DNA of 64,000 bases from an uncultured Acidilobus sp. JCHS (GTDB lineage Archaea; Thermoproteota; Thermoprotei_A; Sulfolobales; Acidilobaceae). Every line of letters starts with the position of its first letter. Positions within the stretch are counted from its first letter, which is position 1. The stretch is from NCBI GenBank assembly GCA_000495735.1, contig AYMD01000001.1:207231-271230 (forward strand), given 5' to 3'. The position numbers were made by a program, and so were the translations under genes. Below, in pieces: positions 2,727-32,559 of the stretch. The notes beneath the pieces are model-generated. The model saw only the letters and a program-made list of their open reading frames with translations. It was not told where the DNA came from and made no database searches.

Positions 2727-3554
2727 ATGCCAACGATACTGGGCGAGCTGGTGGGGGCAGAGGCAAGGTCCAGGGGCTACATGAACCTGCACGTGCTTTC
2801 TAAGGTCTTTCTCCCCCTCTTCATCTCCCTCTCCCTCCCGTTCGCCAGGCAGCCCCTGCAGGCCCTGGCCGCGGCCCTGGTGTCGGTGGCGGCCTGCGTC
2901 GCGGCCGGCGTGCCCCTGTCCGCCATGAAGAGGTACCTGGCCGTCATAATCAGCCTCGTCGCGTTCATAGTTCTGGCCTTCTCCCTGTTCGCCCAGGTCC
3001 CCGGCAGGGTCCTCTACGAGGTCACGCTGGTCAGCATACACGCCCAGAGGGGGGTCGTGGAGTGGAAGCTGGTCATAACTGACACGGGGCTCTGGTACTC
3101 GGCTGCCTTCATACTTAGGGTGTTCGCAATGGTCCTCTCGGCCGTACTTCTCCTTGCCAGCGTCACGGACAGGGACCTGGTGTGGGGCCTCCTCTCGCTC
3201 AGGGCCCCCTTCGGCGCCAGCGTGGCGGCCTCCCTCTTCTTCAGGGGCATCCACTTCTTCGTCTCGGACTTCTACACTGTGAGGGAGGCTATGATGGCGA
3301 GGGGCGTCGACTTCGAGAGGTCATCGCTCGCCAGGCGGTTCAGGCTCTACTCCAACGCCCTGATCCCCCTCCTCTCGCTCATGGTCACCCGCAGCTACGA
3401 GGTATCGCTTGCCCTGGAGTCAAGGGGGATAGCGCCGGGGAGCAGGTCAGCCTCGGGCTACCACGTGTACAGGCTGAGGCCGGCCGACTACGCTGTCCTG
3501 GCCGTTGGGGCCTCAGTCCTCGCGGCGTTCATAGCGTGGGGGTGGCTGGCTTGA
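2727..3554 (+). CDS. ecfT: ECF transporter T component (EcfT/CbiQ family)
   Basis: A 275-aa membrane protein with an N-terminal hydrophobic block and the two cytoplasmic coupling motifs of EcfT: ARG in AMMARGVDFERSS (191-193) and SRG in ALESRGIAPGSR (232-234). These motifs dock into the ATPase dimer in known ECF transporters. It starts 3 bases after the S component, and its TGA stop (3552-3554) overlaps the TTG start of the ATPase gene, so the three genes form one translationally coupled unit. The spacing of the Ala-Arg-Gly motifs is normal and I see no damage. Confidence 0.9.
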   Translation: MPTILGELVGAEARSRGYMNLHVLSKVFLPLFISLSLPFARQPLQALAAALVSVAACVAAGVPLSAMKRYLAVIISLVAFIVLAFSLFAQVPGRVLYEVTLVSIHAQRGVVEWKLVITDTGLWYSAAFILRVFAMVLSAVLLLASVTDRDLVWGLLSLRAPFGASVAASLFFRGIHFFVSDFYTVREAMMARGVDFERSSLARRFRLYSNALIPLLSLMVTRSYEVSLALESRGIAPGSRSASGYHVYRLRPADYAVLAVGASVLAAFIAWGWLA

Positions 3555-5263
3555 ACGTCGCCGTTGTCGAGGACCTCTGGTGGAGGTACGAGGGGAGGGA
3601 GGACTACGCCCTCAGGGGGCTCAGCCTTGAGGTCAGGAGGGGCGAGGTGCTTGCGGTCATGGGCCACTCCGGGGCAGGGAAGACCACGCTCGCCCTCGCG
3701 ATGACGGGCATCATACCCCAGAGGGTGCCGGGCGAGATCAGGGGACATGTTGAGGTCCTCGGGCTCAGCACGCTGAGGGCGGACGTGGCAGAGATAGCGA
3801 GGAGGGCCTCCATAGTCTTCGAGGACCCAGAGGTACAGTTCGTCATGAGCACGGTAGAGGACGAGATAGCCCTGGCCCTTGAGCCCCTCCGCCTCAGCAG
3901 GGACGAGATGAGGAGGAGGGTGCTGTGGAGCCTTGAGCTGGTGGGCCTTGACAGGGGCTTCCTCAACAGGTCGCCCCTCCAGCTCTCGGGCGGGGAGAAG
4001 CAGAGGGTAGCCATAGCGGCTGCAGTCGCGAGGGAGCCAGAGCTCCTAATACTTGACGAGCCAACCTCTGACCTCGACCCCGTCGGCAAGGAGGAGGTGG
4101 TGGCCGCCCTGAGGAGGCTCAGGAGGGAGCTCGACATGACTGTCGTCCTGATTGAGCACGAGCCCGAGTACGTGGCCGAGTTCGCTGACAGGGTGGTCGT
4201 CCTGAGGGAGGGGAGGGTAGCCATGGAGGGAGGGCCGGGCGAGGTGTTCTCAAGGGTTGACGAGCTGAGGTCCCACGGCGTCAGCCCCCCTGAGGTCTCT
4301 GAGCTCGCCGCGAGGCTCGGGCTCGGCCCCGTCTACCGGCTTGAGCAGGCCGTGGAAAGGCTCAGGGGCTCCGTGAGGGCCCTCAGGGCCTTCAGCCCGG
4401 GGGACGGAGGGGGCGCAGCGGCTGGCGAGACCATAGTTGAGTGCAGGGAGGTCCGCTACGATTACCCCGGCGGCGTCCAGGCCCTCAGGGGGGCATCGCT
4501 TGAGGTGAGGGGCGGCGAGCTGATGGCCCTGGTGGGCCCCAACGGGAGCGGCAAGACGACGCTGGCCAAGGTGATGGCTGGCCTCCTGAGGCCCTCAGCC
4601 GGGGAGGTCAGGGTCATGGGGAGGAGAATTGAGGAGTACGACAGGCTAACCCTCTCCTCAACAGTGGCCTACGTCTACCAGAACCCCGACCACCAGATAT
4701 TCAACAAGACGGTATACGAGGAGGTGGCCTTCGGCCTCAGGCTCAGGGGCCTCCCGGAGGGCGAGGTGAGGGCCAGGGCGCTGAGGGCCCTTGAGCTGTT
4801 CGGCCTGAGGGGGCTTGAGGGCGAGCACCCGTTCTTCCTGAGCAAGGGGGAGAAGAGGAGGCTGGCGCTGGCCTCGGTCTACGTGCTCAACCCGAGGGCG
4901 CTCATAGTTGATGAGCCCACGACAGGCCAGGACGCCAGGTTCAGCGAGTCCCTCTTCGCCATGCTTAGGGGGCTGGCCCGCGAGGGCAGGGCCGTTGTGG
5001 TCGTGACCCACTCGATACCGCTGGCGGCCCGCTACGCCGACAGGTTCGTGGTCATGAAGGGGGGCAGGGTTATAGCCAGCGGCCCGCCGAGGAGGGTCCT
5101 GACGTCGCCGGCTGCTGACGAGGGCAGGCTCACGAGGCCCCAGGCGCTCAGGCTCGCCATGGCCCTGGGCATCGACTCGGGCCAGGCGCCCCTCAGCGTC
5201 GAGGAGCTCCTCAGGGCCCTCGGGGTGGGCAGCGGGCCTGCGGCCCCCGGCGAACAGGCCTAG
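3551..5263 (+). CDS. ECF transporter fused double ATPase (EcfA-EcfA')
   Basis: A 570-aa protein holding two complete ABC ATPase domains. The first has Walker A GHSGAGKTT (38-46), signature LSGGEKQR (about 144) and Walker B LLILDEPTSDLD (about 164). The second has Walker A GPNGSGKTT (about 328), signature LSKGEKRR (about 430) and Walker B ALIVDEPTTGQD (about 447). ECF systems usually encode these as two genes; here they are fused. The frame is open far upstream, but the TTG at 3551 overlaps the ecfT stop and begins right at the first conserved strand (NVAVVEDLWWRYEG), so I choose it. It powers the S/T module encoded just upstream. Confidence 0.9.
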   Translation: MNVAVVEDLWWRYEGREDYALRGLSLEVRRGEVLAVMGHSGAGKTTLALAMTGIIPQRVPGEIRGHVEVLGLSTLRADVAEIARRASIVFEDPEVQFVMSTVEDEIALALEPLRLSRDEMRRRVLWSLELVGLDRGFLNRSPLQLSGGEKQRVAIAAAVAREPELLILDEPTSDLDPVGKEEVVAALRRLRRELDMTVVLIEHEPEYVAEFADRVVVLREGRVAMEGGPGEVFSRVDELRSHGVSPPEVSELAARLGLGPVYRLEQAVERLRGSVRALRAFSPGDGGGAAAGETIVECREVRYDYPGGVQALRGASLEVRGGELMALVGPNGSGKTTLAKVMAGLLRPSAGEVRVMGRRIEEYDRLTLSSTVAYVYQNPDHQIFNKTVYEEVAFGLRLRGLPEGEVRARALRALELFGLRGLEGEHPFFLSKGEKRRLALASVYVLNPRALIVDEPTTGQDARFSESLFAMLRGLAREGRAVVVVTHSIPLAARYADRFVVMKGGRVIASGPPRRVLTSPAADEGRLTRPQALRLAMALGIDSGQAPLSVEELLRALGVGSGPAAPGEQA

Positions 5264-5318
5264 GCGGGGCCACGCCTTCTCTTAAGTTAGCAAGGCGAAG
5301 GGCCTCACAGCCTGTCCT

Positions 5319-5340
5319 CTTTCTGCAAATTTGCAGAAAG
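5319..5340. repeat. Perfect 22-bp palindrome, copy 1
   Basis: A perfect dyad of two 11-base arms, left arm CTTTCTGCAAA, centred on AAATTT. It lies directly upstream of a TATA-like CTTAAA (5342-5347) that fits the promoter of the zinc-ribbon gene starting near 5382. A near-identical palindrome at 5872-5893 differs by one symmetric base-pair change. It is likely a dimeric protein binding site or a cruciform/hairpin element. Confidence 0.85.
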
Positions 5341-5381
5341 GCTTAAAGGCCCCGTCGACCCCGCCAGGCCTGGGGCTGGGC

Positions 5382-5795
5382 TTGGGGGTCCAGGAGGGGG
5401 CCGAGGGCAGGGGGCAGGGCCTCGGCGTCTGCCCCAGGTGCGGCAGGCCGATCGACTACGTTGAGAGGCACAGGAGGGGCGACAGGGCCTACATCTACGC
5501 CGTCCACTACGAGGGCTACGTCAACGGCAGGCCGAGGCTAGTGAGGCACTACCTGGGCCCAGAGGGCGGCTACAGGTACGTCACGGCGACTCACGCGGAC
5601 CTGGGCCTTGAGCTCAGGGGCCTCAACGACCCCGACAGGGCGGAGGAGTACGTCAGGGCCCTCGCCGCAGCCCTTGGGCGGGCGGTCGCTGAGGGGAGGC
5701 TTAGCGCTGCCCAGGCCAGGGCCATTGCGAAAGCGATAAGGGATCTCTCGCGGCTGGCGGAGAGGCTGGAGGAGTACGCGGGGCAGGGAGCCTAG
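5382..5795 (+). CDS. Small zinc-ribbon protein of unknown function
   Basis: With a TTG start at 5382 the product is 137 aa. An N-terminal CPRCGRPIDYVERHRRGDR holds one CxxC pair, followed by a Tyr-rich segment (AYIYAVHYEGYVNGRPRLV) and RHYLGPEGG. The C-terminal 70 residues are Arg/Ala-rich amphipathic helix. The layout resembles crenarchaeal small proteins with a zinc knuckle followed by a YLGP motif, often linked to DNA or mobile elements; I cannot name the family. An upstream TTG at 5331 lies inside the 22-bp palindrome and would put the TATA-like CTTAAA inside the gene, so I reject it. The gene is bracketed by twin palindromes at 5319 and 5872, suggesting autoregulation. Confidence 0.6.
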   Translation: MGVQEGAEGRGQGLGVCPRCGRPIDYVERHRRGDRAYIYAVHYEGYVNGRPRLVRHYLGPEGGYRYVTATHADLGLELRGLNDPDRAEEYVRALAAALGRAVAEGRLSAAQARAIAKAIRDLSRLAERLEEYAGQGA

Positions 5796-6115
5796 GCGGT
5801 CCGCCAGACCCGTCGGTGCCCGCTGTGCGCACCTAAGGAGAGGTCAAGCCTTGGCGCCAGCCGCAGGCCTTCTTTCCGCAAATTTGCGGAAAGGCTGGCC
5901 AGCCTCAACGCGGCCTCGGGCTTGTGGGCAGCGGCCAGGCCTAGTCCCAGGCGGGCTATGAAGAGACCTCAAGGGCTAAGGGCGCCCTGGCCCTCGCTCA
6001 GGCCAACGCGCTGGGCGTATCACGTCAGCTGGCCGCTCGGGCCGGGGTCCCGTCAAGACCCACTTCACGGCCTAAGCTCAAAAGCCCTGACCAAAGCGTT
6101 AGCGATGCAGGGGGC
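5796..6115. other. Non-coding gap before truD
   Basis: This 320-bp stretch holds the second 22-bp palindrome (5872-5893) and, from 5945 to 6115, a frame open into truD without any start codon. That frame has codon-like composition (YEETSRAKGALALAQANAL and onward) and may be the remnant of a lost gene. A 102-codon frame starting at 5922 overlaps truD heavily and looks spurious. No tRNA or other RNA gene was recognised. Confidence 0.4.
5872..5893. repeat. Perfect 22-bp palindrome, copy 2
   Basis: Left arm CTTTCCGCAAA, centre AAATTT, fully symmetric. Compared with copy 1, position 6 is C instead of T and the symmetric position 17 is G instead of A, so dyad symmetry is kept by a paired change. 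Flanks TCTTT... and ...GAAAGGCT are also shared. It lies 76 bp after the zinc-ribbon stop and 222 bp before truD. Confidence 0.85.
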
Positions 6116-7261
6116 ATGCCGGTCAGGTCGCCCTACAGGCTCGACGTTGAGCTCGGCCTCCTGTACTACACAGTTGACGAGGCCTGGGCCCCCCTCAGCG
6201 CGAGGGTCCCGAGGCCGGAGGGCTTCATAGTGATTGAGGAGGTTGACGGGAGGCCGTGCACGGAGTTCAGGGGAGGGGAGGAGGGGGACAGGGCGGTCTA
6301 CCTGATGGTCAAGAAAGGGGTTGACCACCTGACCGCATCGCTTGAGGCCTCGAGGGCCCTTGGCAGGAGGCTCCACTTCCTGGGCGTTAAGGACGCCAAC
6401 GCTATTACCTACCAGCTGGCCTACGTCACGGGCCCCCCTCCCAGGGCCGAGGTCAGGGGGAGAGGGTTCGAGCTGAGGCTGCTGGGGATGCACAGGGGGA
6501 GGCTGAGGCACACGGGGAACAGGTTCGAGGTCCTCCTCGAAGGGGCTGACGAGGGGGAGCTGAGGAGGAGGGCCTCGAGGCTCTCCTCCTTAGGTAAGGT
6601 GCTGAACTACTTCGGCTACCAGAGGTTCGGGGCCAGGAGGCCCAACAATCACCTGGTAGGCAAGGCCATAGTTAAGGGGGACCTGAGGGGGGCCGTTGAC
6701 CTGATCATAGGGAGGCCTTACCCGGGGGAGCCTGAGGTCGCCAGGGCGTTCAGGTCCCTCTACGACTCAGGCGACCCGGAGGGGGCCCTGAGGGCCATTC
6801 CTAGGAGGGGGTATGAGCTTGAGAGGAGGGTGCTCTCAGAGTACCTGAGGACGGGCGACCCCGCCAGGGCCCTCAGGGCATCACCCCTGCCGCCCTCCTT
6901 CTTCGTCGAGGCGTACCAGTCATACCTGTTCAACCTGTGCCTCTCAAGGGCCCTCGAGGGGGGCGAGGTATTACCCAGGCTGAGGGTACCGGCCAGGGCC
7001 TCGGAGGCCGAAGGGGTCTGTAAGGAGGTCATGAGGGATGAGGGCGTTGAGGCCCTGTCGGGCCCCCTGGCCAGGGCCAGGCCAATGGTGAGGGCCTCGT
7101 GGGCGGAGTTGAGGGGCCCTGAGGTCAGGGGAGGGGGCTGGGTTACCTTCTCGCTGCCAAGGGGCTCCTACGCCACGGTGGTGCTCAGGGAGCTGCTGAG
7201 GCAGGACCCGTTTGCCCTTACGCTTTCACCTCAGTCATCTGTTCATCATGATCGAGCGTAG
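6116..7261 (+). CDS. truD: tRNA pseudouridine synthase D
   Basis: A 381-aa protein that would make pseudouridine-13 in tRNA. The family motif GVKDANAITYQ is at 90-100 with catalytic Asp93, and NYFGYQRFG is at 164-172. The C-terminal PRGSYATVVLREL motif typical of archaeal TruD is at about 345-365. Length is normal except for about 15 extra C-terminal residues (SPQSSVHHDRA), whose stop codon lies exactly at the edge of the tnpB-like remnant at 7256-7470. The native 3' end may therefore have been altered by that insertion. ATG at 6116 is the first start in an open frame beginning at 5945. Confidence 0.93.
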   Translation: MPVRSPYRLDVELGLLYYTVDEAWAPLSARVPRPEGFIVIEEVDGRPCTEFRGGEEGDRAVYLMVKKGVDHLTASLEASRALGRRLHFLGVKDANAITYQLAYVTGPPPRAEVRGRGFELRLLGMHRGRLRHTGNRFEVLLEGADEGELRRRASRLSSLGKVLNYFGYQRFGARRPNNHLVGKAIVKGDLRGAVDLIIGRPYPGEPEVARAFRSLYDSGDPEGALRAIPRRGYELERRVLSEYLRTGDPARALRASPLPPSFFVEAYQSYLFNLCLSRALEGGEVLPRLRVPARASEAEGVCKEVMRDEGVEALSGPLARARPMVRASWAELRGPEVRGGGWVTFSLPRGSYATVVLRELLRQDPFALTLSPQSSVHHDRA

Positions 7262-32527: not shown

Positions 32528-32559
32528 GCTTAATTAAGCTTAATTAAGCTTAATAAGCC
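32528..32559. promoter_or_regulatory. Tandem 10-bp operator-like repeat between cysC and RHH2-sat
   Basis: The 10-mer TAATTAAGCT occurs twice exactly (32531-32540, 32541-32550) and a third, partial unit follows (TAATAAGCCC). Each unit contains the palindrome TTAA/AAGCTT, so the array is both direct and inverted, with a period equal to one helical turn. It sits between divergent cysC and RHH2/sat starts and provides the only TATA-like sequence there. RHH proteins bind such arrayed short palindromes, so it is a likely operator for the nearby RHH proteins. Confidence 0.6.

Follow-up and report, generated by a model that had tools for sequence, protein, structure and literature searches.

A zinc-finger gene between matched palindromes: a probable family of small archaeal mobile elements

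Results

Palindrome pair in the window

The unit at 5319-5893 probably belongs to a family of small elements, previously undescribed, that are or once were mobile in heat-loving archaea and in which a gene for a zinc-finger DNA-binding protein lies between two palindromes that its own protein recognises. The unit was found in a 64-kb stretch of a 1.48-Mb genome (G000:C1:207231-271230), and this whole stretch is called the window here. The features of the unit are collected in Table 1.

Table 1. Features of the palindrome-bracketed unit, in window positions.
Feature	Position	Strand	Remark
Palindrome copy 1, T type, CTTTCTGCAAATTTGCAGAAAG	5319..5340	.	Forms the 5' end; proposed as binding site and as end of the element
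TATA-like CTTAAAGG	5342..5349	+	Proposed promoter directly 3' of copy 1
Gene for a 137-aa zinc-finger protein, unnamed family	5382..5795	+	Predicted TTG start at 5382
Zinc-binding/three-strand region, CPRC ... YAVHY ... RHYLGP	5430..5561	+	Alignment and AlphaFold2 model
Two long C-terminal helices, proposed dimerisation hairpin	5637..5789	+	AlphaFold2 model; dimerisation putative
Palindrome copy 2, C type, CTTTCCGCAAATTTGCGGAAAG	5872..5893	.	Proposed other end of the unit

The preliminary description had reported twin perfect dyads around a small gene, and its measurements of the pair were reproduced. Both copies are exactly self-complementary over 22 bp, and on recomputation they mismatch at positions 6 and 17 only, i.e., a symmetric T/C–A/G pair. 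Copy 1 abuts the TATA-like sequence with one base in between, copy 2 starts 76 bp past the gene stop (5795), and a third copy is absent from the 64-kb window at up to three mismatches. Two further copies are present in the 1.48-Mb genome: C12:43315 holds an exact T-type copy, and C2:306640 holds CTTTCCGTAAATTTGTGGAAAG. Apart from copies 1 and 2, perfect 22-mer palindromes occur in the window just once, as an overlapping pair in GCTTAATTAAGCTTAATTAAGCTTAAT at 32528-32554. The third copy of the window palindrome in the genome, at L067 (13298-13349), is flanked by two alignment blocks, and in the sister genome G002 these blocks are rearranged.

Zinc-finger gene and protein

The TTG at 5382 was taken as the start because it lies about 33 bp past the TATA-like sequence, and copy 1 is proposed to cover the BRE side of this box. 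CTTAA(A/C) likewise follows the palindrome in L062 and L067, and TATA-like AT-rich runs were found in L063 and L064.

When 27 relatives were aligned, C-P-x-C, Y, H and G were invariant, and a Y-L-G-P block, preceded by Cys or His, was nearly so. The zinc ligands of the window protein are predicted as C17, C20, H42 and H56, the position of H56 being Cys in most of the aligned relatives, and the zinc site of the family would accordingly read CCHC/CCHH, as judged from this conservation. The gene had been called a zinc-ribbon gene; the conserved residues point to a CCHH finger and not to a classical four-cysteine ribbon. The AlphaFold2 model of the window protein shows three long strands followed by helices, with a mean pLDDT of 89.6.

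For the window protein, no Pfam family scored above cut-off, NCBIfam gave no match, nothing credible was found in the PADLOC defence-system library, and Foldseek against PDB and BFVD returned no similar fold. No transposase was recognised in the protein by Pfam, NCBIfam, PHROGs, PADLOC or Foldseek, and neither a transposase/recombinase signature nor a recognised catalytic motif was seen in it. The Y1/HUH domain PF01797 had no Pfam match in the window protein or in any of the 27 members, and their alignment holds no HUH motif. The PSV ORF131-like family PF22415 matched 2 of the 27 members at E<=0.01 (best 1.6e-5), with 16-17 bits for L080 and pSOG1, below the curated cut-off of 27; the window protein had no match.

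In L029 (1468-2499, genome G190), the finger stands at the front of a longer ORF whose DPPY motif suggests an adenine methyltransferase. Such a fusion would fit a DNA-binding role of the finger.

Spread of the family and pairing with palindromes

Homologues are sparse: of 214 genomes in the order, 15 carry at least one, and of 398 in the phylum, 29 do. A few genomes carry multiple copies, with six in G002 and eight in G263 (Ca. Terraquivivens tikiterensis). The palindromes near the gene lie shortly before its start, shortly after its stop or in both places; they differ in their arms by lineage and mostly keep the AAATTT centre. They read TTTCTACAAATTTGTAGAAA in G002, TTTCCACAGAAATTTCTGGGGAAA in G045, TGCACCACAAATTTGTGGTGCA in G178, AGTCCATAAATTTATGGACT in G043, and TTTCCACACAAATTTGTGGGGAAA and AATGGATAAATTTATCCATT in G263. 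A likeness of TTTCC...GGAAA arms to the origin recognition box was considered and dropped since the window arms do not share them. Cognate palindromes lie on both sides of the gene in the window, L067, L068, L069, L113 and L117.

The pairing was assessed by a rank test, in which the best dyad within 150 bp of each gene was compared with random segments of the same loci. On the 5' side, 13 of 33 genes reached p<=0.05 where 1.65 were expected (binomial 3e-9), and on the 3' side nine of 33 did so, again with 1.65 expected (binomial 2.5e-5). AAATTT dyads occurred at 1.52 per kb within 200 bp of the gene and at 0.045 per kb elsewhere in the same loci, a 33-fold difference to which 14 of 34 loci contributed. 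By the rank test, no clear palindrome was found at the homologues L071, L075, L078 and L128. About half of the loci lack a clear dyad by the rank and density tests, and the pairing, though frequent, therefore does not hold everywhere. The preliminary description had named loss of symmetry in orthologous loci as evidence against its view; symmetry was instead retained in the relatives.

The distance between palindrome arms tracks the distance between proteins (Mantel r 0.28, p 0.0002, n 19), a correlation that co-inheritance of linked parts alone could also yield. No relatives were found in viral contigs with three protein queries and two palindrome patterns, and no description of the gene-palindrome pairing was found in the open literature searched.

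Other genes were also observed beside such palindromes. In plasmid pORA1 (L082), two copies of the palindrome TGTTTAAATTTAAACA (4413-4430 and 4953-4970) surround an LSM-domain gene, and a weak homologue of the zinc-finger gene lies immediately upstream of this gene. In several genomes, the palindromes have a PaREP1 gene or a HEPN/nucleotidyltransferase toxin-antitoxin module as neighbour, namely at L068 (1699-2422), L134 (2003-2781), L154 (2010-2788) and L126 (1656-2198).

Palindromes limited to gene carriers

Within the genus, the genomes that lack the gene (G001 and G003) contain no copy of the palindrome, and G000 and G002 contain several. All four copies of the G178-type site lie within about 1 kb around the gene. 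The G263-type site has seven copies in G263, and each of the two types is missing from the nine other genomes searched for it. The exact consensus TTTCCACANAAATTTNTGTGGAAA, of the TTTCCACA type, occurs on four stretches only among genomes of 85,000 species. Three of these belong to Ca. Terraquivivens tikiterensis, which carries eight gene copies, and one to a Clostridia MAG; no relative of the zinc-finger gene is encoded on the latter stretch.

Palindrome copies per carrier genome are few, about four to eight, mostly near the gene and otherwise solo between genes. Many unrelated copies across the genome, which had been put forward as the other sign against a link, did not occur; the copies are linked to the gene.

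Signs of movement

In L068, the 5' and 3' bracketing sites are exact reverse complements, each of them an imperfect palindrome. In L125, the gene and cargo lie inside an exact inverted repeat of 40 bp whose centre is palindromic. A perfect palindrome, like those of the window, has the same reading in either direction; exact inverted copies were seen in two loci, L068 and L125. Compared with its paralogue L118 in G263, L117 has 902 extra bases with one ORF, located between two directly repeated copies of the 3' palindrome plus flank.

A gene-less repeat of about 147 bp, with about 90% identity between copies, is dispersed at several places in G263, the one genome where it was found. It starts exactly at a palindrome P and ends about 15 bp beyond a palindrome Q, and P and Q are the palindromes that bracket the gene in L117. 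The repeat was located at L176 (1503-1647), L178 (1503-1649) and L180 (2351-2503), and also in L179 and at the end of L118. Three different AAATTT/AAAATTTT palindromes are carried by it, i.e., P, M and Q.

Thirteen alignment breakpoints fell within 40 bp of a palindrome against 1.96 expected. Some events appear twice in this count, from both sides, and the palindromes are in non-coding DNA, where alignments break off in any case. For the window unit, neither a clean empty site nor a target duplication was found, as the TruD synteny is lost within the genus. When 3182-7261 of the window was compared with L042-L044, TruD had entirely different neighbours from those in the window in each of the three same-genus genomes, which is a sign of very fast rearrangement. 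For two solo copies, the empty-site comparison recovered only one flank, with synteny again lost; L117 against L118 gives a partial case of an empty site.

Discussion

Proposed mobile element and its working

The preliminary description had offered three readings of the pair, i.e., an autoregulatory pair, a mobile cassette boundary or a new recombination site. The cassette boundary is the best supported, since the bracketing recurs across genera, the palindromes are private to carriers, and the gene-less repeats share the palindromic ends. Autoregulation is plausible as an additional function of copy 1. The third reading, a new recombination site, is possible, but no recombinase is tied to the site.

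The most economical model would be a protein that binds the ends of its unit, controls its own promoter at copy 1 and has a role in unit movement. The protein would bind its palindrome as a homodimer, and such binding would explain why the two arms change together. At copy 1, beside the TATA box, binding would probably also repress the gene, and binding at both ends may mark the unit for movement. The protein may itself contribute to moving or rearranging units bounded by its sites. Several observations count against a mobile element: the protein has no transposase or recombinase signature and no transposase linked to the gene was found, there is no clean empty site or target duplication, some homologues have no clear palindrome, and copy number is low.

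A bolder version of the mobile-element reading is rather doubtful. In it, the family would be a new minimal class of mobile element whose sole encoded function is a CCHC/CCHH zinc-finger protein of about 100-200 aa; this protein would direct or carry out movement between palindromes that it chooses itself, and protein and palindrome would diversify together. That the enzyme class itself is new has a minority chance.

Other explanations

It is unlikely, yet the position of copy 1 gives it some weight, that the protein is an autoregulator only, i.e., a dimeric transcription factor with the palindromes as its operators, the 3' and solo copies as operators of neighbouring genes, and a patchy spread owed to gene loss and transfer. 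By position, an operator-like dyad is present at the gene's own promoter, where the palindrome next to the TATA box or start makes a putative operator: copy 1 abuts the TATA box, and relatives have their 5' site within about 3-115 bp of the start. In L068 and L069, the 3' site stands ahead of a next gene as well, and both inverted copies in L125/L127 precede inward-facing genes. However, three solo copies (C2:306640, C9:7863 and G045:C45) lie between convergent gene 3' ends and not at promoters, and regulation leaves unexplained both the repeats of about 147 bp that begin at and end near palindromes and the extra-ORF segment between direct copies in L117. Quite unlikely is a system of site-specific recombination, in which the palindromes would be core sites of a tyrosine recombinase, i.e., host XerA or nearby XerA-like ORFs, and the zinc-finger protein an accessory or directionality factor for gene cassettes. 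ORFs with a XerA-like catalytic domain and a Phage_integrase match do adjoin the gene in L063 (3836-4423), L065 (4294-4845) and L067 (10144-10440), one of them possibly a fragment; L063 and L065 also have a 2.7-kb block in common. The 8-bp arms and 6-bp centre fit such a site, and the segments between palindrome copies differ among paralogous loci. Yet in most loci, and in the window too, no such ORF is close by, only these three having one, and the fully symmetric 6-bp centre gives no orientation. A fully symmetric centre is unusual for tyrosine recombinase cores.

The matched change in both arms had been read as demanding a hairpin rather than a dimer. This reasoning is unsound, because a homodimer that reads each half-site alike needs matched half-sites as much as a hairpin does. 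RNA hairpins acting in transcripts, as terminators, in mRNA stability or through binding of the protein to its own mRNA, are not favoured and are very unlikely to account for the palindromes. A single strand does fold stably (-7.7 and -8.9 kcal/mol, DNA parameters), both inner pairs of the copy at C2:306640 are retained as G.T on one strand, and some solo copies come after 3' ends. Against this, the imperfect pairs of 31 near-gene dyads comprise 6 G.U, 9 A.C and 12 other mismatches on the sense strand; G.U is not favoured over A.C, which gives no sign of selection for a hairpin in the sense RNA. The loop AAATTT is self-complementary and conserved, which fits a duplex site, Rfam gave no match, and copy 1 precedes the TATA-like box and would be outside a transcript that starts from this box. 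That two unrelated palindromes flank the gene by accident is extremely improbable: 100 shuffles of the window yielded no palindrome match, dyads are enriched near the gene across the phylum, and no point was counted in favour of chance.

Comparison with known systems

Pairs of a gene with its own palindromes, such as RAYT/REP and IS/MITE, shape bacterial chromosomes. For the mobile-element reading, RAYT/REP is the nearest system in architecture. In both, a single small gene lies between cognate palindromes, the palindromes vary yet stay palindromic, and they occur where the gene occurs, clustering near it with solo copies between genes. An inverted arrangement of the flanking palindromes, as in RAYT/REP, may be shared at L068 and L125, where exact inverted copies occur. 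Bacterial RAYTs have the IS200/IS605 Y1 (HUH) transposase domain PF01797, and REPs usually exceed 100 copies per genome (PMC2817692). The archaeal family, in contrast, has a zinc finger without this domain and palindromes in about 4-8 copies. It was not filed as RAYT because a search for the HUH domain came out negative and because copy number is far lower. No archaeal counterpart without the HUH enzyme was found in the literature searched.

With IS/MITE pairs the family shares a gene-bearing unit and a short gene-less repeat with the same end palindromes (L117 against L176, L178 and L180 in G263). However, the archaeal ends are near-perfect palindromes and not simple terminal inverted repeats, there is no DDE or other transposase, and target duplication was not seen. 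The PSV ORF131-like domain (PF22415; PDB 2x5c, Pyrobaculum spherical virus) is a distant match, its CPRCG...YLxxRH corresponding to the first part of the zinc domain; the second half is not common to both, the window protein has no match to it, and PSV lacks the AAATTT dyad. Archaeal dif/XerA and integron attC resemble the palindromes as short dyads bordering exchangeable segments, whereas the palindromes have no constant recombinase partner, are fully symmetric, and vary in their arms with the adjacent zinc-finger gene. The family offers a large set of natural pairs in which protein and site vary jointly, so that a recognition code could be tested directly, and an unclassified protein family gains a concrete candidate DNA target.
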